Source of the DNA: Ignavibacteria bacterium
GTDB taxonomy: Bacteria; Bacteroidota; Ignavibacteria; Kapaibacteriales; UBA2268
NCBI GenBank assembly: GCA_026416955.1
Contig: JAOAEE010000046.1
Location: 1-49,899 of the forward strand
Reading direction: 5' to 3'
Length of the DNA: 49,899 nucleotides
The first letter of the stretch is position 1. Each line of letters begins with the position of its first letter. The notes under the pieces were generated by a model. The model was given only the letters and a program-made list of their open reading frames with translations. It was not told the DNA's origin and did not search any database. A program made the translations under genes and the position numbers. Below are positions 1 through 34,413 of the stretch, one piece after another.

Positions 1-3000
1 CAAATTCAAATTTCCGAATCTTCGAGTTTCAGTTCTTATGTAGAACAGCAAGATGGGATACCTGGAAATGTTACTTCCTATCGTGTTTTAACAAGCTTAA
101 CAGATAAAAAAACGTATTACTGGCGAATAAGGGCATATAGATGTAATCCTCGTCAATATGGAAATTGGTCCACCGTTTGCAGTTTTAAAATTAACTTACC
201 TTTGACCGCACCAACTAATCTGAGAGTTTCTTTTATCGATACAAACCAAAGGAAAGTTACCCTAGTTTGGGATGCAGTAAGCGGTTCTGGTATAACCTAC
301 AAAGTTTTTAGAAAAAAAAGTAATGAAACTAATTTTAGAGAAATTGCAACTGGTATTTCTAGTAATGAATATACAGATTTCGGTTTAGAATTTGGAGTAA
401 CTTATTATTATGTAGTTATTGCTGTAAAAGAAGGAAAACAAAGTGAGCAATCAAACCAGGTTGAAGTAAAGCTTGTAAGAAATAATCAAGATCCAAACCC
501 ACCTCCACAAAAATGTTATTATTATCCAAACATAAAAAAACCTATTTTGAAATTCTGTGGCGAATACACTGGAATAGCTGAAAATAAAATAGAATTCAAA
601 AATAAGTTGATAATTAACGAGATTTTAGTTCTTGAAGGAAACACAATAATTGACACCACAAAATTTGAGTTAAAATTTAATGGAGAAATATATATCGAAA
701 ATGTAAAGTTACCAGGTAAAGTTGAAGTTGGGAAACTCGTTATTTATGAGGGTGAATATTTTTGTTCCTTTGAGGATACTAATCTCATTACAAACAAAGA
801 TATTCAAAAGTTTAAAAAAGCAGATTACTTTGCTGGAATAAAATTAATACCCACAAAATTGGTCTTTTCAGGTGGGATTGCATCAACAAAAATAACTATG
901 GCTGCTGAAATATGGTTAGAACACACAAAAAATTGCAATGACAGAAGAAGAAGGACAAGATTTGAGATACAAAATTTAGAAATATATAAAAATTCCTCAA
1001 CTGGTAACTTTGAAGTCGCTTTTAAAGGAGGATTAAATGGGCTCGGGTTTGGACTCGACCAATTAGATGGAAGCAAAATTGACGTTTGTTTGAACCAATT
1101 GTTAGTGGAATTCCGGTCAGACCAAAATAAAATAGACTTTGATGGTACTTTTAATTTTGACTTACTAAGCAATTCAGCAGAACTTACCTTTGGTGTAACT
1201 TTTATTGAGGGTTGTTTTAATCGAGGGAAATTAGGAGTAGCAATAGATAAACCCATCCCACTAGGTAATCTTCCTTTGGGAATATCTGGTTTTGGAGGCG
1301 AGGTGGATGGTTTATGCGAGGGGAACAAGAAGCTTAGTTTCTGGGGTGCCACCAAACCTATCGCTTACCCTAACCTATTCGAACTTGGTTTGGAAGCTAC
1401 TCTAAATTATGATACAAAGGTTTTTCTGAATAGCAACGTCGAAATTAAAGCCAATGCAAAAATATGGAAACAAAAAAGTTCTGAAGATTGGATTGGTAAT
1501 GGTATGTTAAGAGGGGCTTGGTATTTCAATAAAAACACACTTGAGTTAAATGGGAATTTAAACTTTATAGAATACAAAGACGAGAACGATAACGAAGATT
1601 ACGTTATCAAAGGGAACGGTGATATGCTTATTTACACTGAAAAATCTAATGATATTAATTTTAACGGTGAAATTAAAGGATCTATTACTATTCCAAAATT
1701 GAGGAAAAATGAAGGGCTATTTTGCATCGAGTGTCCCTTAATTGATTTGTATAACCAAGAAATTGGAGGCCGCGCAATCTTTGCTAATGCTAATTTTAAC
1801 AAAGAAAAAATTGCTGCTGTATTAGACTTTTCAAAGCTGTCCCCATCTATAGGTAAACTCGATTTTTACTTCGATTTTGCAAAACAACAATTGCAGTTGG
1901 GTCCTTTACTTGTTAAACTCCGTAACCAAATAGGTCCTAAAAATTCAAGCGAGCTGATTTTGAATCTTGTAAAAAAAGACACGATTCTAATTGACGGAAA
2001 TATCGAAAAAGTTATTTGGGAGATAACTGTAAAAGATTCAATACCAAATTCTTATATCACATCTCCTCTTAATAAATCATTTCTATCAACTGACAGTGTT
2101 GCTAATGTATTTTATCTAACCAGAAAAGATAATAAAAGAGTTTGGTGGATAGTCAACAACCCTATTCAGGGAAATTGGATATTGACAATACAAAACTTCT
2201 CAATTGTTGATAGTTTTAATATTTATGTCCAAAAGAAAAAAACAGTCCCAAATTTCAACATAAACTTAATTAATGATAAAATTACCATTCTTTGGAATGA
2301 AGTAGATGACGGAACTATTAAATTTTTTGCCGACGATGATTCTATTGGATACAACGGCTTTTACTTAGGTTCAATATTATCTAGCGGAAAAAGTTTTACA
2401 TATATTATACCTGATACATTTAAAATGTGTAGTTTTTACTTGTATTATATGTATTATGATAAGAATGGAAATTATATTCAAAAGGGATATTTAACTCCCA
2501 AATTCAATAATCCAAAACCAATTTTAAATTCTCCAAATTATGTAAAAGCAATTTATCATCCTCATTTAAATTCAACAATAATTAAATGGAATTGTTCTCC
2601 AAACCATTTGATAGAAGGTTTTCTAATTACTTCCGTTGAAATTAACGGTAAAGAAAACGTATTGGGCGTGGTTAATAAAGGTGTTTTTGAATTTAGTATT
2701 AATGATAATTTATCAAATAAAGTAATAAAAATTTATTCCTTTGATATTAACCTCAACAAAAGTTGTCCATTTGAGACTCTGGTTTTAACCAATGAAATTG
2801 TTTTTGAAAACTGCGATAAAACTTCTAAACCCGTACAATTTAAATATATAAACGTTCCTGCAAGCAGCAGAGGAACTGTGGTAAGAATTGATGTAGAAAC
2901 TGGAGAAGTTATTGGTGAATACTACACTTATCCAAATGGTCAAGGCGATCCATCTCGGACCACTGTAGATGCTTGGGGGAACCTGTGGGTGGGTAATAGA

Positions 3001-5307
3001 ACAACTAATGCTGGATTAACAAAAATTGCCCTAGTTGTAGGTGGAACAAGGTGTGACTCTCTTGGAAGGCCTAACCCCAATGGACAATATCTAAAACCAC
3101 CTTTTGATTGGGTTAGTGTCGGAGATTGGCGAAACCTGGACAGAAATCGAGACGGTTTAATTAAGACATCAAAAGGTCTGCAAAATATCCTTCGTTGGGA
3201 AAATTTAAACTTGCCGCCAGAGGATGAATTAATCGTCTTTTGCAAAATCTTCAATTCAGAAGATCTAAACAATATTCGTCATATTTCGGTTGATTTAGAC
3301 AATAATATATGGGTGGGTGGATTTTCTTTTCCAATCTCTCAAGGTTATACAATAATTAATAATTCAAATGGTGATATTTTAATGCCTATCACAAAATACA
3401 AAGCTGGTGGTTACGGAGGATTTGTAAATTCGTCTGGCTTTTTGGTTTCTTCTGGGCATCAAAACGGTATTTTAATTCTGAATACAAAAAAACCCAGCTT
3501 TTATTTTGTCGACCCAAATGTTAAAATTTACGGTTGCTCCCCAGCGTTAGAGGAGAATATGTTCTGGGCAACCCATCTGGAAAGTAATAAGATTCTAAAA
3601 TACAAGATAGATACAGTTAATAAAAAGTGCACTCAAATACTTGAAAGAGAAATTTTACCCCAGTACGGTCGAGGTATTTGCGTATCCAGAAAAGATGGAA
3701 ATGTTTGGATAGCATCTTCAATCGGATCTGGTAAACACGTCATTAGATTCAATCCAAATAACAATAAGGTTGATACTATCCTTTTATCCTCCGAAACAAC
3801 CGAACCAACTGGAGTTGCTATTGATTACAATGAAAATGTTTGGGTAACAAATAGACAAACCCACAATGTGATGAGAATCAATCCAAAGACAAATAAAGTT
3901 GAGTTAACCATTGATTTAGGTCCGGGCGCAGGACCTTATACTTATAGCGATATGACTGGATATGTTCTTTCTAATTTTACACTTCCAATACTCTTAACAG
4001 ATGATACTTTGGATTTTGGGACAATTACTTGCGACAATATTAATCTAGTAAAAAACTTGGAAATTTGTAATTCTGGATATAGGGACCTTATTATTTTTTC
4101 AATTGATAAACAAAAAAAATTAAAACACTTTACATTAGTAATTGATTCATCCACATTTCCTATCATTGTTCCTCCTGGAAAAAAAGTCAAAATCAAAATT
4201 CGTATTGATACATTGATTTCAGGAAATTTTGAGGAAACTCTAATTATCAAATCGAATGGTATGAATATTATAGATTCTATAAAAAAAGTTGTCGTAAAAG
4301 GTAGAATTTTGTTGCCCAATTATATTGCAAATGTAAAAGATACGACAATAATAAATTGTTTAACACTTGAAAATATGAAGACAAAAGAAATATATTTAAT
4401 AATTAGGGACATTAACAATAGTTCTATCCGCTCGAAAGCTTTCACACGATTGATATCCAATGGTGCAATTCATTTAGATTCAGATACAATAAATTTTGAT
4501 AATAATTCCTCTAGGCTTAGAGTTAATATCTTGCCGGGATTTGAAGACCTTTATGAAGAAATTATTTTCAAAAAAGATTGTTATAGCTACGACACAATAA
4601 AAATTAGAGTGAAATATAATTCCTCTTACTATTTTAGGACACTAACAAGACGGCCGTCGCAACAAACGTATAAAGAAGACACTATTCAATTTAAGATTAC
4701 ATCTCCAGATTTACCAAGCGTTTACGAACTCAAACTCCCTGCTGTTGATACTTCGGGTAAAACTGTGCTTAAAACAAGAATCAAAACCTACTACCTACTC
4801 GACACATTACTTTATTGTAGTGGCTTCGATTTAATTTTCCCAGAAAAACCTAAAGTTGAAAGCTTTGATACTAAACCCAAACTATTATTCATATTGAAAT
4901 TAGACTCTGTTGTATGTAAAAATTCCAAGACTGGTTTTCTTTATAAAGATACCTTATTAAAGTTAAGAGAACCATTTATTTTAGATACAATATTTTTAAT
5001 TTCTGCATATTACACTATCGAAAATATTTTAAACGTAGAATTTACATTAAGCGAATCGATAAACTTGACTACATCGCCCCAACCTGCTGATAAATTTTTA
5101 CTAGTAGGTATTCCATTTTTAGACTCACCAACAGATATTACTATTAAAGTCTATAACTTCATAGGTGAAGAAGTTTATCAATTTAATGGTCATTTACATT
5201 CAAACTTATTATCAATATCAACCGAAATGTATCCTGAAGGAATTTATTTGTTATTTATTAAAATGAAGGATAACATTTTTAAAACAAAATTTTTTGTTAG
5301 TCATTGA
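1..5307 (+). CDS. Giant T9SS-secreted multidomain protein (FnIII, beta-propeller, ASH-like), 5' end outside window
   Basis: The reading frame is open from base 1, so the gene starts left of the window. The first ATG/TTG-type codon near 202 is inside a fibronectin type III repeat (the preceding codons give TYYWRIRAY, an FnIII strand) and is not a start. About 1768 codons are visible. Order seen: end of one FnIII (to ~200), a second FnIII (~211-475), a long beta-rich region I do not recognise (~520-2000), a region with further possible Ig/FnIII-like strands (~2000-2850), a beta-propeller with repeated NNIWVGG/ENVWVTN blades (~2860-3950, Vgb/NHL-like), an ASH/choice-of-anchor-like domain (~4000-4310), and a C-terminal T9SS type A-like sorting domain with GEEVYQF and YPEGIYLLFI (~5060-5304). 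It is likely exported through the inner membrane by Sec, then across the outer membrane by T9SS. It ends 8 nt before the next cargo gene. The family boundaries are by eye; function is unknown, probably surface-exposed. Confidence 0.85.
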   Translation, partial: QIQISESSSFSSYVEQQDGIPGNVTSYRVLTSLTDKKTYYWRIRAYRCNPRQYGNWSTVCSFKINLPLTAPTNLRVSFIDTNQRKVTLVWDAVSGSGITYKVFRKKSNETNFREIATGISSNEYTDFGLEFGVTYYYVVIAVKEGKQSEQSNQVEVKLVRNNQDPNPPPQKCYYYPNIKKPILKFCGEYTGIAENKIEFKNKLIINEILVLEGNTIIDTTKFELKFNGEIYIENVKLPGKVEVGKLVIYEGEYFCSFEDTNLITNKDIQKFKKADYFAGIKLIPTKLVFSGGIASTKITMAAEIWLEHTKNCNDRRRRTRFEIQNLEIYKNSSTGNFEVAFKGGLNGLGFGLDQLDGSKIDVCLNQLLVEFRSDQNKIDFDGTFNFDLLSNSAELTFGVTFIEGCFNRGKLGVAIDKPIPLGNLPLGISGFGGEVDGLCEGNKKLSFWGATKPIAYPNLFELGLEATLNYDTKVFLNSNVEIKANAKIWKQKSSEDWIGNGMLRGAWYFNKNTLELNGNLNFIEYKDENDNEDYVIKGNGDMLIYTEKSNDINFNGEIKGSITIPKLRKNEGLFCIECPLIDLYNQEIGGRAIFANANFNKEKIAAVLDFSKLSPSIGKLDFYFDFAKQQLQLGPLLVKLRNQIGPKNSSELILNLVKKDTILIDGNIEKVIWEITVKDSIPNSYITSPLNKSFLSTDSVANVFYLTRKDNKRVWWIVNNPIQGNWILTIQNFSIVDSFNIYVQKKKTVPNFNINLINDKITILWNEVDDGTIKFFADDDSIGYNGFYLGSILSSGKSFTYIIPDTFKMCSFYLYYMYYDKNGNYIQKGYLTPKFNNPKPILNSPNYVKAIYHPHLNSTIIKWNCSPNHLIEGFLITSVEINGKENVLGVVNKGVFEFSINDNLSNKVIKIYSFDINLNKSCPFETLVLTNEIVFENCDKTSKPVQFKYINVPASSRGTVVRIDVETGEVIGEYYTYPNGQGDPSRTTVDAWGNLWVGNRTTNAGLTKIALVVGGTRCDSLGRPNPNGQYLKPPFDWVSVGDWRNLDRNRDGLIKTSKGLQNILRWENLNLPPEDELIVFCKIFNSEDLNNIRHISVDLDNNIWVGGFSFPISQGYTIINNSNGDILMPITKYKAGGYGGFVNSSGFLVSSGHQNGILILNTKKPSFYFVDPNVKIYGCSPALEENMFWATHLESNKILKYKIDTVNKKCTQILEREILPQYGRGICVSRKDGNVWIASSIGSGKHVIRFNPNNNKVDTILLSSETTEPTGVAIDYNENVWVTNRQTHNVMRINPKTNKVELTIDLGPGAGPYTYSDMTGYVLSNFTLPILLTDDTLDFGTITCDNINLVKNLEICNSGYRDLIIFSIDKQKKLKHFTLVIDSSTFPIIVPPGKKVKIKIRIDTLISGNFEETLIIKSNGMNIIDSIKKVVVKGRILLPNYIANVKDTTIINCLTLENMKTKEIYLIIRDINNSSIRSKAFTRLISNGAIHLDSDTINFDNNSSRLRVNILPGFEDLYEEIIFKKDCYSYDTIKIRVKYNSSYYFRTLTRRPSQQTYKEDTIQFKITSPDLPSVYELKLPAVDTSGKTVLKTRIKTYYLLDTLLYCSGFDLIFPEKPKVESFDTKPKLLFILKLDSVVCKNSKTGFLYKDTLLKLREPFILDTIFLISAYYTIENILNVEFTLSESINLTTSPQPADKFLLVGIPFLDSPTDITIKVYNFIGEEVYQFNGHLHSNLLSISTEMYPEGIYLLFIKMKDNIFKTKFFVSH

Positions 5308-5315
5308 GGTGAAAT

Positions 5316-7514
5316 ATGAAACCATCATTTACATTACTATTTTTTACTATTTTTTTATTTAAATATCATATATTTGCTTTTAACGAAATTGATCCTAACG
5401 ATACTTCTCGAAACGTTGTCATTACACACATTTTTCGAAATAAAGAAGATTTTACTGAGTTCAATAAAATTTTTCACACAGGAGTCACATATCGAATTAC
5501 TTTCGTAGGTAAATATCACATTTGGGAAAACTTTAATCCTCAATTCGGCATAGACGCTCTATATTTTCAGGATATCCCCATTTTTAAAACTAACAATCCC
5601 AAAAATGATTCTATCAATCAATCCATGGTTAATCAGGTGCTTTCTAAGAAAATACCACTTTATTACGACACAAAAGTAAGAATACCAAACCCTCTTAACT
5701 TTGGTGGTTACTTTATTACATTTAACCCATATTATGACCAAGGATTACGAGTAAATAATAAAACCATCAATTCTTATAATCTAACTTTTGCAGATTCTTC
5801 GAAGAGTATTTATCAAATTACAATCGAAGGAGATAATAAAAATTATAACTTCAAATTTTTAAATTTTGTTACTCTTGAATCGAACGAAAGAATTTCGACT
5901 GATTATTTATCTGGGGACTTTTATATTTACATAAGAAGTTTCCCTAGAAAAGATACTTGCCAAACTTTTATTAGAAGTAGAGGTAATTATGTTGAAGTTC
6001 AAATTGATTTTGCAGAAATTGTAGTGGATACCACTTATTTAAAGGGGATAACTAACTTGCTAAAAAGGCAATCTCAAAATATACGACAAAGAAAATTTAC
6101 ATTACGTTCACAACGAAATTTCTATTGTATTGATTCAATAGAATGTCAAGTTCCGATTAAAAATAAGAATATATTATTATTAGTAGATAGATCTAATACT
6201 ATGGACCAAATTGTTGGGCAAGGTCTGAAAAAGAAAATCGAAATTGAAAAACAGTTGATTCAAAACTTTGTAAATACCACCATTTTGCCAACCGATAGCG
6301 TGGCATTGATAACATTTAATACTTCCTATGAGTTAATTAATTGGACGAACAATAAATCCCTAATTTTAGATAAAATTAACAAATTGGAGCCCTCTGGAAA
6401 CACTTTATTATATAAATTTCTACTAACTGCCTTGGAATTTTTGGACCGCTCACCAAAACTAAACAAGGCATTAGTTGTTTTCTCCGATGGAATAAATCAA
6501 CCCCCTTATTTTGATAGTACTTTTCTTTTCGAACATTTGATGAAACATATCTGGAAATATAAGCATATCCCTATTTATTTTGTTGTAATTCCTTCTAACC
6601 CTAGCAAGGACAGAGATATTGGCTTACAAAGATTGTGGATAATTAAAAATACCCATTCAAATTCAATTTTTTACTCCCCAGATAATATTTCGGATTTAGA
6701 GACTTCGATCCAAAAAATTACTGAGGATCTTTCTGAAGAACTATGTTGTTCTATTTTCCTCGAAATCCCTAATCCTTGTATTGGGAAAAAACCTAATGAA
6801 ATTGTTTATCTTGAACTACTTTACTCACCTATTGAAAAAGACACTATTGTAATATATAAAATTCCAGTTTATTGCAAAAATGTCATTTCTAATGTTTTCT
6901 ATAGTTGTCTGCGGTTGAAAAGTATTGAGGAAAAGTACTATAAAGACAATGATGTTGTTCGAATGAAATACCTTTTTGTAAACGAAGGTAATTTACCTTT
7001 GACAATTTCCTCATTTGAAACGGAAATTCCAAACCTTACATTTTCGAGACCCTTACCATTAGAGATTCCACCATTTGACTCAATAATTATTGAATTCTAT
7101 TTTAATAGAAAACCCATTTTAGAGAAAGACTATATTAAAGTAATTAAAAACTCAAATTGTGGCGATTCTTTGATTTCTTTAAAATTTTTAAATAATTATT
7201 CTAATTTCGATGAAATAAGCGAGAAAAGATTTGACTTTGTGAAACTATCTAATAATATTTTAGAAATTTATCCAAATCCTATTGATGGTGACGATTATCT
7301 TACATTAAATTTGTCAATCTTAAATACTAGTCCCATTCAAATTAAATTGTTCGAACATAATGGAAGAATGTTGTACTCTTGCATTTATCAACCCGAGCAT
7401 CCCGGAATTCATACTCAAAAATTGTTCGTGGGTAACTTGTCCGCTGGGATCTATTTTATCCAAATAATTGCCAATGGCAAAATAGAGACTAAACCTTTTG
7501 TAATTTATAGATAG
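5316..7514 (+). CDS. T9SS-secreted von Willebrand factor A domain protein
   Basis: 732 residues. It has an N-terminal signal peptide (hydrophobic residues ~5-21, cleavage near FAFN), a region of unknown fold (~25-280), a VWA domain (~285-475) and a C-terminal T9SS sorting domain (~650-732: IYPNPIDGDD, then LSAGIYFIQI). The VWA MIDAS motif is DRSNT at about residues 291-295, a DxSxS-type metal site with Thr in the last place; VVFSDG at ~386-391 supplies the later MIDAS aspartate. Between VWA and sorting domain lies an ASH-like beta domain (~570-640, VNEGNLPLTI), which resembles one in the preceding protein. The start has a GAGGTG ribosome site 5-6 nt upstream and lies 8 nt after the previous stop, so the two are co-transcribed. 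A metal-dependent adhesion or protein-binding role on the cell surface is inferred from the VWA fold; the ligand is unknown. Confidence 0.85.
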   Translation: MKPSFTLLFFTIFLFKYHIFAFNEIDPNDTSRNVVITHIFRNKEDFTEFNKIFHTGVTYRITFVGKYHIWENFNPQFGIDALYFQDIPIFKTNNPKNDSINQSMVNQVLSKKIPLYYDTKVRIPNPLNFGGYFITFNPYYDQGLRVNNKTINSYNLTFADSSKSIYQITIEGDNKNYNFKFLNFVTLESNERISTDYLSGDFYIYIRSFPRKDTCQTFIRSRGNYVEVQIDFAEIVVDTTYLKGITNLLKRQSQNIRQRKFTLRSQRNFYCIDSIECQVPIKNKNILLLVDRSNTMDQIVGQGLKKKIEIEKQLIQNFVNTTILPTDSVALITFNTSYELINWTNNKSLILDKINKLEPSGNTLLYKFLLTALEFLDRSPKLNKALVVFSDGINQPPYFDSTFLFEHLMKHIWKYKHIPIYFVVIPSNPSKDRDIGLQRLWIIKNTHSNSIFYSPDNISDLETSIQKITEDLSEELCCSIFLEIPNPCIGKKPNEIVYLELLYSPIEKDTIVIYKIPVYCKNVISNVFYSCLRLKSIEEKYYKDNDVVRMKYLFVNEGNLPLTISSFETEIPNLTFSRPLPLEIPPFDSIIIEFYFNRKPILEKDYIKVIKNSNCGDSLISLKFLNNYSNFDEISEKRFDFVKLSNNILEIYPNPIDGDDYLTLNLSILNTSPIQIKLFEHNGRMLYSCIYQPEHPGIHTQKLFVGNLSAGIYFIQIIANGKIETKPFVIYR

Positions 7515-7536
7515 TTTATCTATAGGATATGTTACT

Positions 7537-10155
7537 ATGAAACACTTAAAATTTATTTTTGTGTTTTTAATTATAGTTTCTCAAACTCTGTATTCACAAT
7601 CGTCAATGACAATATACCCAACTAAAGATGCCTATACTGAAGCTAAAAACGGGAAAGCAAACTATAATGGGCAAAATATCAAACTTGGTTACCAATCACC
7701 ACCAAATTACAATCAATTCTATCCAGCGTTCTTTTTCCAAATGCCAAACAACATTAATTCTTCCCAAGTAGATTCAGCAAAGTTGTATTTAACCAAAATA
7801 GAAGGAAGCGGGACACAAACTGAAGTCGTTGGCCTTTATATAACTGCGAATTGGGAGGAAAATTCAATTACAAGCAACTGGCTTAATTCCAATGTTAGCT
7901 ATACTGGTTTTGACAAGGTAAACAACGTAACTGGAGATTTAGTTTTTCCGATGACTATTGCTGTAAAAAAATGGTTAGATAACCCAAGTACAAACTTTGG
8001 ATTTGCTCTCTATCCCGAAGCTTTTTCTCCCACGACGGTATTTATTTATTACGATAAGGAGAATGGAATAGGTGGACAAAAACCTAGATTAGTTATTTGG
8101 TATAAAGAGCATAAACCAACAAAGAACATTCAAATAATTGAACCAAATAAGAATACAGTATGGACCCAAAGTAATCAGTACCTAATAAGATGGACAGCAA
8201 ACTATTCCCTTCAAAGGGTTAATTTATATTACAAAGCAGTAACAGACCCAGTTTTTATTCCCTTAAATGACAATCCAATTTTGAACAATTATTCTTTTAA
8301 ATGGTCAACTCCGGAAATGTACAAAGAACAAGTAATTGTAAAGGTTGAAGATGCTGATGACCCAAATATTTATGCAATAAGTGACGTCTTTTTGTTAAAA
8401 CCCCCTTCCTCTGAATTCAGACCTAACCCTGATGGTTTCAATTTTGCCAACACTCGTGAAAATATGTGGCCATCAAACGATTCTTTTCCCACTTATGCTA
8501 TGTTCTTGAATACTTTTGGCTTGGAAAATAACCCTGAAAATTTCGAAAGATACCGGAATTTCAGGATGAATTGGAGAGGTTCTTGCTATGGTTTTTCTCT
8601 TGCTTCGTTACTTAGATATTGTGATTACATCACTCCAATTTTAGGTTATCAAAGAACTTATGATGTTCCTCTTAACCAGCAATCAAGGGATTTAGTTAAT
8701 AAGTATTTTTTGTATCAATGGGATAGAGATGTTGGAAGACTTAGAAATACTTTACTTACCCCCAACTTCGATCCTAGAAGTTGCATTAAAATGTTGAAGG
8801 ATATGTTCAAACTCGATAGACAACATAATCAACCGTTAGCACTCTACTATATTGTTAATGATAGTATTTTGGGAGGACATTCTGTTGTTCCTTACCGTGT
8901 GTCAAGCGTACATAATACTTTCGACACAATCTTTGTCTACGACCCCAATTTACCTGGTAATTCTAATGCGTACATTTTAGTCGACAGTACAAATAATATT
9001 TGGAGATATCCTTCTACGGTTTCTAATTTTAATGAAGATTGGGTTGGTGCTTGGGGATTATTTCCAGACTTAGTCGTTTCAACTTTTAGAAACAGAGGTC
9101 CTAACTTCTTTTTATTACCAAAAGAATACATTGTTTTTGGAAATGATTATACTTTGAGTAACGATACCTTTAAAGTTGATATTTTCTTCTCTGGTGAACT
9201 TATATTATCTGTATATAATAAGAACAATGAAGTAATAAGCAATTTTGACATAAATCCAATTAAGAAAAATGTAAATGCTTATCCTATAATCCCTTTGACT
9301 GGTGGGCGGACAAAAGTTGTTGGATTTTATCTTGATCAAGTAGGTTACGATTTTGTAAATTTGAGTTACAAATTTCTTGATGGCAAAACTGTAAATTTTG
9401 GTTGCTTCACACCAAATTTATCAATTTCTTTAAGTTCAACTGGTGAAACAAATGGTATTGCCTCTTTTAAATTAGATTACCAAAAAGATAGCCTAATTCA
9501 ATTCTCCCAAACAAATATTAATAATTATGATTTACTAATTATGCATAAAGACCAACTTTCAATTAAACAAATCAATTTTTATAATTCTTTTCTTAGAAAA
9601 GGAGATTCTCTTTCAATTAGGTTACTTAATAATGCAAAACAAATTGTTTTAACAAACAAAGGTTCTGATAAGACATATAGAATTTCTTTTAAACTAAATA
9701 AAAATAGTTTTTATTACCATAACTCAATAATAGAATTTAAACGAAATCAAACTCATATTTTTATTATTGAAGATTGGAACAATCTTCAAGACAATTCAAA
9801 AAAATTAATACTGAAAAAAATTGATGGTAGAAATATTGTTGAAACCGACTTAAGGTCTGGCAAAACAACGAATGTAGAAGACGCTACTAATTTCAAATCT
9901 GACTTCAATATTAGTTACAATGCTGCTAACAATTCTCTTGATATCTTTTACTCAACCCCAAATCCATTACTTGCCGATATTATTATTTTTAACCTTTTGG
10001 GGAATAAGGTACTTTCACAAAGCAAAATATTATTTAAAGAATCTACGAATAATAAGTATGAAGTTGATGTTTCAAATTTGTGCTCTGGTGCTTATTTTTG
10101 TATACTTATTACCCCTAATAGTTCAATAACTTATAATTTCTTTATTTTAAAATAA
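7537..10155 (+). CDS. T9SS-secreted protein with DNRLRE-like domain and papain-like Cys-His-Asp domain
   Basis: 872 residues. A signal peptide (~1-20, ending LYSQS) is followed by a DNRLRE/CBM96-like beta domain (~22-190: a YPTKDAYTE start and a PRLVIWYK end), an FnIII/Kre9-like strand-rich segment (~195-285), then a globular part (~295-515). That part carries GSCYGFS with Cys350, GGHSVVPY with His448 and VYDPN with Asp469, in the order and spacing of a papain-fold (clan CA) cysteine peptidase. After a beta-rich region the protein ends in a T9SS sorting domain (~785-872: YSTPNPLLADI, CSGAYFCILI). It follows the VWA gene by 22 nt and is probably the last gene of the three-cargo operon. Peptidase or transglutaminase-like activity is inferred from three residues and their context only; a non-catalytic relative is possible. 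Confidence 0.8.
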   Translation: MKHLKFIFVFLIIVSQTLYSQSSMTIYPTKDAYTEAKNGKANYNGQNIKLGYQSPPNYNQFYPAFFFQMPNNINSSQVDSAKLYLTKIEGSGTQTEVVGLYITANWEENSITSNWLNSNVSYTGFDKVNNVTGDLVFPMTIAVKKWLDNPSTNFGFALYPEAFSPTTVFIYYDKENGIGGQKPRLVIWYKEHKPTKNIQIIEPNKNTVWTQSNQYLIRWTANYSLQRVNLYYKAVTDPVFIPLNDNPILNNYSFKWSTPEMYKEQVIVKVEDADDPNIYAISDVFLLKPPSSEFRPNPDGFNFANTRENMWPSNDSFPTYAMFLNTFGLENNPENFERYRNFRMNWRGSCYGFSLASLLRYCDYITPILGYQRTYDVPLNQQSRDLVNKYFLYQWDRDVGRLRNTLLTPNFDPRSCIKMLKDMFKLDRQHNQPLALYYIVNDSILGGHSVVPYRVSSVHNTFDTIFVYDPNLPGNSNAYILVDSTNNIWRYPSTVSNFNEDWVGAWGLFPDLVVSTFRNRGPNFFLLPKEYIVFGNDYTLSNDTFKVDIFFSGELILSVYNKNNEVISNFDINPIKKNVNAYPIIPLTGGRTKVVGFYLDQVGYDFVNLSYKFLDGKTVNFGCFTPNLSISLSSTGETNGIASFKLDYQKDSLIQFSQTNINNYDLLIMHKDQLSIKQINFYNSFLRKGDSLSIRLLNNAKQIVLTNKGSDKTYRISFKLNKNSFYYHNSIIEFKRNQTHIFIIEDWNNLQDNSKKLILKKIDGRNIVETDLRSGKTTNVEDATNFKSDFNISYNAANNSLDIFYSTPNPLLADIIIFNLLGNKVLSQSKILFKESTNNKYEVDVSNLCSGAYFCILITPNSSITYNFFILK

Positions 10156-30108: not shown

Positions 30109-30298
30109 TTTTATTTAAACAAATAAAAAATTTTTCTGATAATCCATATTTGTGAATAACGAGGTATTTTAACGAACATTGATATCCTTCCTCAAAAGGT
30201 TTATTAAATAAATTCAACTAAAAGAAATTAATCCAAAATAAAATAAATATCAAGATATATCTAAATACAAAAAATGGGTTTTGGCTGTTGTTTATTCT

Positions 30299-30306
30299 TA
30301 ATTTTG
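30299..30306 (+). promoter_or_regulatory. -7 promoter box of gatE-gatD
   Basis: TAATTTTG matches TAnnTTTG exactly, 18 nt before the ATG at 30325. It lies inside the longer open frame that begins at 30274, which argues that the upstream codons are leader, not protein. No TTG lies 19 bp upstream. Confidence 0.4.
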
Positions 30307-30324
30307 TTTTTTATTTTTTTGCAA

Positions 30325-32256
30325 ATGGAGAACGATTTCTTAAAAAATTTCGAAGAGATGACCGACGCCGACTACGAGGCTTTGGGTTTTCGCGCTGGTG
30401 TCGAAATTCATCAACAATTGGAAACCAACCAAAAACTATTTTGCCGATGCCCTTCTCCGAAGCCACCATACGACAATACCTATCACACTGAAATTGTAAG
30501 AACTATGCGACCGACACCTTCGGAATTAGGGGAAATCGACCCATCGATTTTAATGGAATATAAAACTAGAAAAGAAATACATTATCGAATTAATAGGAAT
30601 AATATTTGCACATACGAGCTCGACCAAACCCCTCCATTTGAAATAAACCAAGAAGCATTGGATATTGCATTGCAATTTTGTTTTATCTTTAATGCAAAAC
30701 CAATAGACGAGATATACATTCTACGCAAACACCAGCTTGACGGTAGTATCCCAAGCGGTTTCCAAAGAACCGCCCTTATTGGTGTCGATGGTTTTGTTGA
30801 ATTCAATGGAAGAAATATTCATCTATCGCAAATTATTTTGGAAGAAGATGCAGCAAGGGAGCATTCCGACCAATTCCACATCCGAACTTTCTACACCGAC
30901 AGACTTGGCATCCCTTTGATAGAAATTGTTACCGAACCAGAACTAAAGTCCCCAAACGAGGTTAAGGAATTTTGCGAATTAATTCGAAACTACTTTATAG
31001 TTTCGGGTAAGGGGCGTGTTGGAAGTGGTACTTTTCGTTTCGACTTAAATATTAGTATTACTGGAGGAACAAGAATCGAAATTAAAGGAATAGATAAGAT
31101 AAAAAATGTTCCAATTATTGCCTACAACGAAGTTCGAAGACAGTGGAACTTAATCCGTTTGAGAGATGAATTAAATCGAAAGGGAATTACCCCCGAAACT
31201 TTCTCTTTCAAGTCCTTCAATATATACAAGGTACTCAAAAACACGGAGTATTATCCCATTGCAAAATGCCTTGCAAATGGGGGAGAAGTCCACTGTATTT
31301 TGTTCCCAAAGTGGGCTGGTCTACTTAAATGGCCAACCCAAAGATATACTGTCTTTTCCCAAGAAATTTCCGATAGGGTAAAGGTTATTGCTTGCTTGAC
31401 AGAGACACCAAATATTATTGTTTCCGATATAATTGATAACACAATTTCGAGGGAAGAAATAGATAAAACCAGAAAATTCATTGGAGCAAGCGACAAAGAC
31501 GCTTTCGTAATTGTTTGGGGGAACTCAGACGATGTCAAAACAGCAGTGGACGAAATTATTGTTCGGCTTCACGAGGCTACCCAAGGAATACCTTCGGAAA
31601 GTCGGAGAGCTTTGAAAGATGGTACCACTGCATTCGAAAGGATTTTACCCGGAACCGACAGAATGTATCCCGATACCGATTTACCAACCTTAGTTTTGGA
31701 TTCCCATAAATTTGAAAGAATTAGGTTAAGTTTGTCCGAAACATTTGGGCAAAGGCTAAAATGGTGCCTCAACAACAATATTCCAAAAGTAATTATTTCT
31801 AAAGTTGCTACTTCTAGAAGATTTGAATTAATTAGAGATATATCCAAGGAAATGGAGCTATCCCCATCCTTCGTTGCCAATGAACTGTTGAGCTCGTTTA
31901 GGTGGTTAAGAAGAAAAAAACTTAATACTTCTTTAATTTCGAACGAGCAAATCAAGGAAGTGTTTAAACTTTACAAGTCTGGAAAAATTTTGAAAGAGGG
32001 AATAAAATATGCTTTCGAATTAATACTAAAGGGACAAGAACGCTACATTTTACATTTGCTTTCGCCAGTAAGCATAAATGAAATCGAAACAGCATTCCAC
32101 CGGGCTATTCTTTATTTGAAAAACGCAAGGCTTTACCATCCAGAAAAAACGAAAGAAATAGCTGTAGGATTGATTATGCAACAACTTCGTGGTAGGGTCG
32201 AAGGAAGGTTTGTCCACAATTATGTCTTTACAAACTGGAATAAAAAGTATGAATGA
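30325..32256 (+). CDS. gatE: Glutamyl-tRNA(Gln) amidotransferase subunit E (archaeal type)
   Basis: 643 residues from the ATG at 30325; the 17 extra upstream codons are hydrophobic and unlike the family. GatE is the tRNA-binding kinase/transamidase half of GatDE, which turns misacylated Glu-tRNA(Gln) into Gln-tRNA(Gln). It starts like the GatB/E cradle (ALGFRAGVEIHQQLET, FCRCPSP), with FEINQEALDIALQF, GFQRTALIG and LEEDAAR, then LGIPLIEIVTEPEL. An inserted AspRS-like GAD domain (~340-440) and the TAFERILPGTDRMYPDTDLP segment distinguish it from bacterial GatB, which is about 480 residues and lacks the insert. The C-terminal helical and YqeY-like domains follow (~460-640). It overlaps gatD by 8 nt. 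GatDE is regarded as archaeal, so this is probably acquired. Confidence 0.94.
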   Translation: MENDFLKNFEEMTDADYEALGFRAGVEIHQQLETNQKLFCRCPSPKPPYDNTYHTEIVRTMRPTPSELGEIDPSILMEYKTRKEIHYRINRNNICTYELDQTPPFEINQEALDIALQFCFIFNAKPIDEIYILRKHQLDGSIPSGFQRTALIGVDGFVEFNGRNIHLSQIILEEDAAREHSDQFHIRTFYTDRLGIPLIEIVTEPELKSPNEVKEFCELIRNYFIVSGKGRVGSGTFRFDLNISITGGTRIEIKGIDKIKNVPIIAYNEVRRQWNLIRLRDELNRKGITPETFSFKSFNIYKVLKNTEYYPIAKCLANGGEVHCILFPKWAGLLKWPTQRYTVFSQEISDRVKVIACLTETPNIIVSDIIDNTISREEIDKTRKFIGASDKDAFVIVWGNSDDVKTAVDEIIVRLHEATQGIPSESRRALKDGTTAFERILPGTDRMYPDTDLPTLVLDSHKFERIRLSLSETFGQRLKWCLNNNIPKVIISKVATSRRFELIRDISKEMELSPSFVANELLSSFRWLRRKKLNTSLISNEQIKEVFKLYKSGKILKEGIKYAFELILKGQERYILHLLSPVSINEIETAFHRAILYLKNARLYHPEKTKEIAVGLIMQQLRGRVEGRFVHNYVFTNWNKKYE

Positions 32257-33634
32257 TGAAAATTACAAAGGATATAAAGGAGTTGCACTTTCAGTTTTAA
32301 AAAGTTTTGGCGTTAATGTTTGGAACGAAGTCCGAGTTACGACAACAGAAACAAAGTTTGTCGGTATCATTCTACCCCGTAGCGAAGGGAGCAACGATGA
32401 ACATATAGTTTTAAAGTTGCGAACTGGATACAACGTTGGAATTCGTGTCGATAAAATTCAATCGATTGAATTGCTTGGAAAAGTTGAAAAACCGACAAGT
32501 ATCCCCAAAAAAGAAATTTCGCCCGACCCAAAGAAACCAGATGTGAAGTTGATTAGTACTGGCGGAACGATTGCTTCAAGATTGAATTATAGAACTGGGG
32601 CTGTTGTTCCAGCATTCGAGCCCGAAGAACTCTATGCATTTGTACCAGAACTCTCGGAATATTGTAATTTGTCCACTGAAAAACTTTATAGTGTGTTAAG
32701 TGAAGACATTGGTCCGGAGCAATGGTTTGGTATAGCAAATGCAATTGCAAACGACATCGAGAATGGATACCACGGTATTGTTATTGCCCACGGAACTGAT
32801 ACTATGCATTATACATCTTCTATACTTTCGTTTATGATACAAAATCCACCAATTCCAATTGTGATGGTTGGGTCGCAGCGTTCAAGCGATAGGCCAGCCT
32901 CCGACGCTCCTTTAAATTTAATTTATAGTGTCAAGACAGCAGCCGAAAGCGATATCGCAGAAGTAACTGTTTGTATGATAGGTCCAATTTCCGATGCCTA
33001 TGGTGTTTTGCATCGTGGGACCCGTGTCCGAAAAATGCATTCATCCCATCGCTCCACTTTTCGCACCATTGGCGATATCCCTCTTGCAATTGTGGATAAA
33101 GAAAAAATTGTTCCACTACGAAAGGATTATAACACAAGGAGAAAGGACAAAAGTTTCGATTTTATTGTAGCATTCGAAGAAAAGGTTGCTTTAATTTACT
33201 ACTACCCAAATATGAAACCCGACATCATAGAAGCATTGATAGATAACGGATACAAAGGTATTGTGCTTGCCGGAACTGGTCTTGGACACGTGAACAAGCA
33301 AATTTATCCAGCATTGAAGAAAGCCCACGACAAAGGGATTTTCATCTTAATGACTGTCCAAACTCTTTGGGGTTATGTCCAAATGTATGTTTACGAAACT
33401 GGAAGGGATATAATGTCGCTTGGGGTTGTACCCGGCGAGAATATGTTGCCAGAAGTTGCCTATATGAAATTATGCTGGACGCTCGGTCAAACCACAGACC
33501 CCGAACAAGTTAAAGAAATTATGTTAACACCGATTGCTGGTGAAATAACCGAACGCGAACCAACCAACGCTTACTTAGTTCTGCAAGGTGGAATTCCAGA
33601 AGTCGAAGAATTCATTTCTAAGATAAAAATTTGA
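32249..33634 (+). CDS. gatD: Glutamyl-tRNA(Gln) amidotransferase subunit D (asparaginase-like, archaeal type)
   Basis: 461 residues from the ATG at 32249, which lies 8 nt inside gatE; an ATG at 32222 is possible. GatD releases ammonia from glutamine (or asparagine) and passes it to GatE. A small N-terminal beta domain (~1-80, VWNEVRVTTTETKFVGIILPRSE and KLRTGYNVGIRVDKI) is typical of GatD and absent from plain asparaginases. The asparaginase core carries Thr107 in STGGTIAS, Thr183-Asp184 in AHGTDTM and Lys229 in YSVKTAA, the catalytic set of the fold. GSQRSSDRPASDA and GTGLGHVN are also family-typical. It ends 5 bp before the convergent MqnA-like gene, leaving no room for a terminator. Confidence 0.95.
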   Translation: MNDENYKGYKGVALSVLKSFGVNVWNEVRVTTTETKFVGIILPRSEGSNDEHIVLKLRTGYNVGIRVDKIQSIELLGKVEKPTSIPKKEISPDPKKPDVKLISTGGTIASRLNYRTGAVVPAFEPEELYAFVPELSEYCNLSTEKLYSVLSEDIGPEQWFGIANAIANDIENGYHGIVIAHGTDTMHYTSSILSFMIQNPPIPIVMVGSQRSSDRPASDAPLNLIYSVKTAAESDIAEVTVCMIGPISDAYGVLHRGTRVRKMHSSHRSTFRTIGDIPLAIVDKEKIVPLRKDYNTRRKDKSFDFIVAFEEKVALIYYYPNMKPDIIEALIDNGYKGIVLAGTGLGHVNKQIYPALKKAHDKGIFILMTVQTLWGYVQMYVYETGRDIMSLGVVPGENMLPEVAYMKLCWTLGQTTDPEQVKEIMLTPIAGEITEREPTNAYLVLQGGIPEVEEFISKIKI

Positions 33635-33639
33635 AAAAA

Positions 33640-34413
33640 TCAATCTCGGGACAAAATTTTGACTGCTGGAATATCGGTCAACAATTGATGCATATATAGA
33701 AATAGTAGGGCAGTTTCGATCGAAGATTCTAATTCGGGTACCCACTTCCAATAAATATTCCCTTTTCGCTGATAATGTTGGATATTATCCTCAGCAAATT
33801 CTTCGCTAATTTCCACTTTATCGGGCAAAGTTTGGCTAGCAATTGCAGATATAATTTCTTGTATATTAGGGGGATAATTTTCTGCCCGGCAAACCCAAAA
33901 ACCAAGCGGCAATGGTTCTTCGACCAAGTCGAACCACTCTTCGGTTATGTCGAGTGTAACATCTTCTCCACTTTCCTTCCCCCAAAGAATAGCAGAGTCG
34001 AAATTGCTTAGAATTTCGGATTTAGTGCCTTCGTTGTGCTCTAAATTCAGTTCAATACCAAATTTTTCTTTAAGAAGAAGACGCGCAACAACCATCATAA
34101 AATCATCTGGAGTATTGGAGCGTATCGAAGAAACCTCCTTTAAGTTCTTTTTGAAATAAATTGTTGCCAGACCAGTATAATCTTCGGCAAACAAGATAGG
34201 CCCCGGAATAATTCTAAAATCGGCAATTTTTACTCCTTTGCCATAACCCAATGGTGAAAGGAATGCAGCATCGACAATATTTTGCAGAAGAAAATCGGTG
34301 CATTCTTTTTCAGTTAGTTTATAATATTTAATATTGTGGCTTTTGCAGTATATTTCGCACTCTTGGAACAGAGGTTCGTAAATTTCATTCCTTGGAAATG
34401 CCAATCTAATCAT
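33640..34413 (-). CDS. MqnA/MqnD-like (periplasmic-binding-fold) protein
   Basis: 257 residues, no signal peptide. The layout fits the MqnA/MqnD chorismate-dehydratase family of the futalosine menaquinone route: VDAAFLSPLGYGKG (~50-63), then FAEDYTGLATIYFKKNLKEV, TPDDFMMVVARLLLKEKFGI, AILWGKESGEDVTLDITEEWFDLVEEPLPLGFWVCR (in two blocks, ~145-180) and a helical C-terminus. Family membership is by pattern; the N-terminus (MIRLAFPRNEIYEP) departs from textbook MqnA, so it could be a paralogue with another ligand. It starts 1 nt after the murD stop, hence a murD-linked operon. A full set of other mqn genes is not in the window. Confidence 0.65.
   Translation of the reverse strand: MIRLAFPRNEIYEPLFQECEIYCKSHNIKYYKLTEKECTDFLLQNIVDAAFLSPLGYGKGVKIADFRIIPGPILFAEDYTGLATIYFKKNLKEVSSIRSNTPDDFMMVVARLLLKEKFGIELNLEHNEGTKSEILSNFDSAILWGKESGEDVTLDITEEWFDLVEEPLPLGFWVCRAENYPPNIQEIISAIASQTLPDKVEISEEFAEDNIQHYQRKGNIYWKWVPELESSIETALLFLYMHQLLTDIPAVKILSRD

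Follow-up and report, generated by a model that had tools for sequence, protein, structure and literature searches.

An archaeal-type GatDE amidotransferase beside glutaminyl-tRNA synthetase in a genome of the Ignavibacteria

The DNA analyzed here (the window: 49,899 nucleotides, positions 1 to 49,899 of contig JAOAEE010000046.1, assembly GCA_026416955.1, Ignavibacteria bacterium of the Kapaibacteriales) carries a gatE-gatD gene pair, for which the initial annotation had proposed an archaeal-type Glu-tRNA(Gln) amidotransferase in a bacterial genome. Comparison with profiles, structures and homologs confirmed that the predicted products form a true archaeal-type GatDE with intact catalytic residues. 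The annotation had also suggested that the organism may rely on GatDE for its Gln-tRNA. This is not supported, as the host genome (2.49 Mb, 98.3% complete; G000 in our numbering, with the window as its contig 13) encodes a full-length glutaminyl-tRNA synthetase (GlnRS; 782 bits, cut-off 425.8; G000:C20:2998-4581). Because GlnRS is present, the job that would remain for GatDE is the amidation of Glu-tRNA-Gln made by glutamyl-tRNA synthetase (GluRS), and GatDE is likelier to assist or safeguard the supply of Gln-tRNA than to be its main source.

In the accessible text of two reviews (PMC9499178, PMC8007984) GatDE is restricted to the archaea, and in that of the former the archaea lack GlnRS, an absence linked to a special tRNA-Gln that is read by GatDE. 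GatDE or GatCAB is also treated in the accessible parts of PMC7373986 and, in a reference only, PMC13047044; the part of PMC3927822 that is accessible deals with GluRS and does not mention GatDE. We found no paper on bacterial GatDE in the open-licence literature that was searched. The NCBIfam models already recognize bacterial GatE and GatD, which makes the genes visible to annotation. The many bacteria that combine GatDE with GlnRS break the archaeal pairing of GatDE with the absence of GlnRS, and represent natural systems in which the two must share one tRNA. The question of the origin of GatDE is reopened.

Identity of the gatE-gatD pair

Both proteins scored above the cut-off of the dedicated models: GatE with NF003107 (510 bits, cut-off 456) and TIGR00134 (430, cut-off 319.6), GatD with NF003217 (528, cut-off 310) and TIGR02153 (527, cut-off 324). 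The extra N-terminal domain that had been noted in GatD was recovered as GatD_N (PF18195; 58.4 bits, cut-off 25.7). For either subunit the best matches by sequence among solved structures were the archaeal GatDE complexes of Pyrococcus abyssi (1zq1) and Methanothermobacter (2d6f), with an identity of 31-36% for GatE and 48% for GatD. An AlphaFold2 model of GatE (mean predicted local distance difference test score 77, predicted template modelling score 0.75) retrieved the same two structures first in a Foldseek search, then GatB chains and then, weakly, bacterial aspartyl-tRNA synthetase (AspRS; E 0.004 and above). The latter matches are consistent with an AspRS-like insert in GatE, which had been predicted together with a length of about 640 residues, and both agree with what we found (Table 1). 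The host pair thus resembles archaeal GatDE in the presence of both subunits, the insert, GatD_N, the catalytic tetrad and the fold of GatE.

GatCAB and GatDE catalyze the same reaction, and GatB of bacterial GatCAB shares the GatB/GatE catalytic domain with the GatE of the window. GatB nevertheless lacks the insert: the alignment of GatE with 1zq1 and 2d6f spans it, while the GatB profile skips it. Against the best GatB model GatE obtained 147 bits, far below the cut-off of 338, so that a misassigned GatB, a possibility considered from the outset, is rejected on the profile scores. A different protein named GatD is the lipid II amidotransferase subunit that partners MurT, which belongs to another glutamine amidotransferase family. 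Only the name is shared, and murC and murD lie near the pair; the GatD of the window is of the asparaginase type.

The catalytic set had been given as Thr107, Thr183, Asp184 and Lys229. The first three stand; the lysine that aligns with K254 of 2d6f is K262, and position 229 also holds a lysine, though not the aligned one. T107, T183, D184 and K262 were identical in all 68 aligned rows (66 bacterial and 2 archaeal), and the corresponding residues of 2d6f are presumably the catalytic ones. Within GatE, G24, E26, H28, Q29, E172-D174, D191-G194 and Y447-P453 were invariant in an alignment of 18 rows that included four genomes of the host genus.

Distribution, other routes to Gln-tRNA and history

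Presence is hereafter scored by profile matches over the cut-off, unless stated otherwise. GatE was found in 12 of 148 genomes sampled across the phylum, all in the class of the host (12/36, against 0/112 elsewhere), and in 27 of 60 relatives, all in the family of the host (27 of its 36 genomes). Four of the five genomes of the host genus have GatE, among them one consisting of a single contig (G148), and in these four gatE contains no in-frame stop; the profile search returned no GatE over the cut-off in the fifth, sister genome G151 (98% complete). A scan of named genomes detected at least 561 relatives, the best 80 of which were taken (the named loci). Their record titles, which are the submitters' own, include Ignavibacteria, Melioribacteraceae, Aminicenantes, Acidobacteria, Phycisphaerae, Calditrichaceae, KSB1, Cloacimonetes, Neomarinimicrobiota and others. 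At least one title looks wrong: the GatE and GluRS of a metagenome-assembled genome (MAG) titled Desulfobulbaceae (G222, locus L068) cluster with the family of the host and its tRNA-Gln(UUG) is that of G174, so the title is probably erroneous. Nearly all of the named records are MAGs, and no cultured carrier of gatDE was identified. GatDE is not the recent acquisition of one genome; it is present in the family, in the class and in records of other bacterial phyla.

The pairing of the two genes is widespread as well. The start of gatD falls between -60 and +300 nt from the end of gatE in 58 of 77 named loci; of the remainder, 4 lie on contigs that end too soon, 9 have gatD at another spacing and 6 show no gatD match. 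Other neighbours are poorly conserved, the commonest families being secreted proteins (15 of the 80 loci) and, as judged by eye, PhoH-like proteins (7 of the 80), and the 13 other window proteins that were compared had no match among the flanking open reading frames (ORFs) of two loci of the genus (L058 and L059). No tRNA gene was called in the 80 loci (868 kb), which is fewer than we would expect by chance and perhaps an effect of contig assembly. A search of viral contigs gave no relative. On the plasmid of Natrinema thermotolerans CP031304.1, a megaplasmid (L168), an archaeal GatE-like stretch runs across two reading frames where no gene is listed.

GlnRS is not peculiar to the host, as all five members of the genus have it. 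The host genome further encodes an asparaginyl-tRNA synthetase (AsnRS) and one GluRS-like protein; the profile search for GatB, the one GatCAB subunit covered, found none over the cut-off in it. The 36 genomes of the family divide into 21 with only GlnRS, 13 with only GatB, none with both and 2 with neither, and GatE occurs in 19 of the 21 and in 7 of the 13, respectively. In total 55 genomes, a sample partly chosen for GatE, were scored for the three proteins. The 38 with GatE comprised 10 with all three, 7 with GatB, 20 with GlnRS and 1 with GatE alone (G175, 84% complete); the 17 without it comprised 2 with GatB and GlnRS, 12 with GatB, 2 with GlnRS and 1 with none (G178, 72% complete). GatE is therewith associated with GlnRS (30/38 versus 4/17, Fisher p 0.0002), also inside the family (19/27 versus 2/9, p 0.019), relatedness being uncorrected in both tests. 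Counted as GatB-negative were two genomes with GatE and GlnRS that retain remnants of GatB below the cut-off, G116 (a 124-aa frame, 55 bits) and G159 (contig C495; 43, 25 and 24 bits). The latter looks as if it had just lost GatCAB.

Another 28 GatE-bearing genomes, taken from the named loci, contained GlnRS in 21 and GatB in 9 cases. After removal of a duplicate (G223, equal to G180), the set of carriers amounted to 65: 38 over the GatE cut-off and 27 by tblastn similarity. Because 59 of these 65 have GlnRS or GatB, GatDE is seldom the sole visible route to Gln-tRNA in them, and the pattern is the reverse of that in archaea, where GlnRS is absent. Of the six exceptions, G175, G201, G204 and G206 also lack a GluRS match (glnS profile). 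This suggests gaps in these genomes, although it is a weak sign of incompleteness, given that the match relied on the glnS profile and that G004, listed as 100% complete, had none either. In G214 the GlnRS is split into pieces at contig ends, and the Calditrichaceae MAG G221 has GatE and GluRS and neither GlnRS nor GatB over the cut-off.

Loci at which the routes lie side by side are rare. In L379 (G014:C45:505000-516000) the glnS and gatD matches converge at about 27 bases from each other, and in L123 a glnS ORF follows gatDE. In L380 (G215:C1:3596500-3601500, a single-contig Phycisphaerales MAG) only a C-terminal piece of GlnRS (173-aa frame) was found beside GatB and GatE, and the glnS of this genome is possibly decaying.

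The GatE tree (81 rows, of which 78 bacterial and 3 archaeal, two full and one partial) unites the bacterial sequences in one group, connected to the archaeal rows by a branch of 1.81 changes per column. Within it the host genus forms the deepest bacterial branch (Shimodaira-Hasegawa-like approximate likelihood ratio 97), while the GatD tree (68 rows, two of them archaeal) nests it on a long stem among Bacteroidota/Ignavibacteria rows. The former tree, though not the latter, suggests that the genus obtained its GatE separately from archaea; we set this reading aside and take the deep position as probable long-branch attraction. Both trees would fit an ancient GatDE lineage of bacteria that has evolved fast in the host genus. 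Together with the distribution this agrees with the long settlement in a bacterial lineage that had been supposed. On the GluRS tree most genomes without GlnRS lie inside a group whose other branches carry it, and because of this nesting a simple reading would be that the ancestor possessed GatDE, GatCAB and GlnRS together.

The rate of nonsynonymous change (dN) from the host to the same two sisters was 0.26 for GatE, against 0.12-0.14 for GatD and 0.13-0.15 for GluRS. The proportion of nonsynonymous differences in GatE within the genus (pN 0.22) lies far below the synonymous one (pS 0.76-0.81, near saturation). Judged by these values, GatE is under purifying selection in the genus, yet evolves faster than GatD and GluRS.

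tRNA-Gln isoacceptors and the role of GatDE

Of 43 tRNA matches in the host genome 36 were read, two of which are tRNA-Gln. The UUG isoacceptor (G000:C26:6835-6909) has A1-U72 and retains G73, G2-C71 and G3-C70 of the set recognized by GlnRS, and the CUG isoacceptor (G000:C76:41861-41934) has U1-A72. According to the accessible text of the sources, U1-A72 is one of the bacterial Gln elements and is read by GatCAB (PMC9976931, PMC4206432), archaeal GatDE reads A1:U72 and the D-loop (PMC9499178), and a small D-loop is favoured by both amidotransferases (PMC4810234). In this respect the two host isoacceptors are mixed. Among 54 genomes whose tRNA-Gln(UUG) was readable, 8 have A1-U72: all five members of the host genus as well as G156, G158 and G175. 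Seven of these eight have GatE, the exception being G151. A1-U72 was confined to genomes without GatB over the cut-off (8/34 versus 0/20, Fisher p 0.02, kinship uncorrected) and changed three times on the GluRS tree (without G175), while most GatE-bearing genomes with data kept U1-A72. The D-loop has two extra bases in G000, G148, G149, G150 and G156, whereas G151 combines A1-U72 with a loop lacking them. Two columns of GatE met a loose rule for tracking A1-U72, neither with a shared residue. We read A1-U72 as permitted after the loss of GatCAB and tolerated by GlnRS, perhaps with the aid of GatDE, and not as proof of a dependence on GatDE. The search for tRNA-Gln by pattern was dominated by chance matches. 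At G132:C1:2631649-2632123 (L258) a unit containing a T-arm and a 3' acceptor half of tRNA-like form is repeated in tandem about five times at a spacing of 114 bases; ARAGORN called no tRNA-Gln there.

The setting thus differs from that of archaeal GatDE in its bacterial host with GlnRS, in the deep bacterial group formed by the proteins and in tRNA-Gln with G73 and, in most relatives and the host CUG isoacceptor, U1-A72. The archaeal indirect pathway, with a non-discriminating GluRS, GatDE and no GlnRS, does not apply to a host that has GlnRS. In the reading that we favour, to which we give about an even chance, GatDE would convert Glu-tRNA-Gln into Gln-tRNA-Gln as an accessory of GlnRS in the host and of GatCAB in certain relatives. 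GluRS would put Glu on some tRNA-Gln, by error or by design, GatD would free ammonia, and GatE would activate and amidate the Glu on the tRNA. The mischarged tRNA would thereby be mended, keeping Glu away from Gln codons, and the same reaction could provide a backup supply of Gln-tRNA. We assume this known chemistry of glutaminase, activation and amidation because the parts are conserved; the enzyme activity, Glu-tRNA-Gln as the substrate, the mischarging by GluRS and repair as the selected benefit are all things that we infer. A comparable retention is that of GatCAB beside both GlnRS and AsnRS, for example in Bdellovibrio, where it was proposed to be kept for tRNA-dependent synthesis of Asn (accessible part of PMC4206432). 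GatDE is known only for Glu-tRNA-Gln.

Several observations weigh against this role. The supply of Glu-tRNA-Gln is left unproved, as the site of Thermus Arg358 does not separate the types of GluRS: the host has Arg, but so does every aligned GluRS of the phylum, including those of all 13 aligned genomes without GlnRS, for which reason we rejected the residue as a specificity marker (among rows from other phyla the residue differs in G220 and G221, and G212 and G215 are gapped at this site). The GluRS tree offers five independent contrasts for GatE, too few to test the association with GlnRS. For up to five genomes in which neither GlnRS nor GatB exceeds the cut-off (G175, G201, G204, G206 and G221), a dependence on GatDE is conceivable in principle. 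The predicted D-loop of the host tRNA-Gln(UUG) is 11 nt long (9 in G151), against the preference of GatDE for a small loop. The long branch of the genus in both trees and the lack of GatE over the cut-off in G151 would also fit a relaxed need. Finally, GatCAB mends the same substrate, which would make repair by GatDE redundant in the relatives that have it.

Among the alternatives, a substrate other than Glu-tRNA-Gln (some other mischarged tRNA, or a carboxylate that is not a tRNA, with no bearing on the supply of Gln-tRNA) is unlikely, if the foremost of them. It would explain why GatDE persists beside GlnRS, GatCAB or, in 10 of 55 genomes, both, where the amidation of Glu-tRNA-Gln should be dispensable, but the insert, helical and tail regions of a tRNA-dependent enzyme are retained, none of the sparse neighbour families points to another pathway, and no tRNA gene lies in the 80 loci. 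It is slightly less probable that GatDE is a redundant relic in the host genus, made dispensable by GlnRS and drifting to loss. The long stem branches, the elevated dN of GatE and the case of G151 speak for it; the stop-free gatE of four carriers, a GatD tetrad intact in the three sequences of the genus that were aligned and a pN far below pS do not. About as improbable, or a shade more so, is a division of labour in which GlnRS charges tRNA-Gln(CUG), and GluRS with GatDE charges tRNA-Gln(UUG), so that GatDE is needed for CAA codons. This would imply two parallel glutamine chemistries in one genome and a hybrid tRNA-Gln(UUG) of archaeal A1-U72 and bacterial G73, which we consider equally doubtful. 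The opposite 1-72 pairs of the two isoacceptors, the bias of A1-U72 towards genomes with GatE and away from those with GatB, and the reported reading of A1:U72 and the D-loop by GatDE (PMC9499178, accessible text) are in its favour. Yet G151 has A1-U72 and GlnRS without GatE or GatB over the cut-off, implying that GlnRS apparently serves such a tRNA; moreover, U1-A72 prevails among GatE-bearing genomes with data, the UUG isoacceptor keeps its GlnRS elements, five genomes carry extra D-loop bases and no residue of GatE was found to follow A1-U72.

That GatDE is the main or only route to Gln-tRNA is very improbable: the lack of a GatB over the cut-off and the A1-U72 pair of one isoacceptor would suit it, and the full-length GlnRS of the host and the GlnRS of all five members of the genus contradict it. 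A contamination with archaeal DNA or a misassembly, the other early concern, found no supporting point at all and has a practically negligible probability; we regard it as ruled out by the base composition, which is like that of the neighbouring genes, by the GatE of the single-contig sister and other genomes of the genus, and by the tree, in which one bacterial group stands at the end of a long branch.

Gene arrangement and surroundings

The features of the pair are listed in Table 1. The overlap of 8 nt that was described initially is indeed present and suggests translational coupling of gatE and gatD. The box ahead of gatE is also there, as TAATTTTG, which matches what we take to be the consensus of the Bacteroidota -7 box. 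Shuffled sequence contains TANNTTTG 72 times on average and the window 93 times, so that a single match proves nothing.

Table 1. Coordinates of gatE, gatD and associated features in the window
Feature	Position	Strand	Description or basis
gatE	ORF 30274-32256; CDS (coding sequence) 30325-32256	+	Glu-tRNA(Gln) amidotransferase subunit E, kinase/transamidase and tRNA-binding subunit; 643 aa; likelier start ATG 30325 (MENDFLK...), alternative ATG 30274
AspRS-like insert	about residues 290-440 of GatE		Alignment with 1zq1 and 2d6f; Foldseek
gatD	ORF 32189-33634 (from GTG); CDS 32249-33634	+	Glu-tRNA(Gln) amidotransferase subunit D, asparaginase-type glutaminase with GatD_N domain; likelier start ATG 32249
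gatE/gatD overlap, 8 nt	32249-32256	+	From the likelier start ATG 32249 of gatD
TAATTTTG	30299-30306	+	Bacteroidota-type -7 box by consensus only; motif match

The pair is flanked by murC on one side and, on the opposite strand, by a gene for an MqnA-like protein and murD on the other. In GC content, overall and at third codon positions, gatE and gatD resemble 13 further genes of the window that were taken for comparison. The MqnA-like gene (33640-34413, minus strand) is convergent with gatD, and its product barely passed the Pfam model VitK2_biosynth (26.8 of 26 bits). At 202-10155 (plus strand) the window encodes three large proteins with C-terminal sorting domains of type IX secretion, one of which exceeds the Pfam cut-off and two of which fall just below it.

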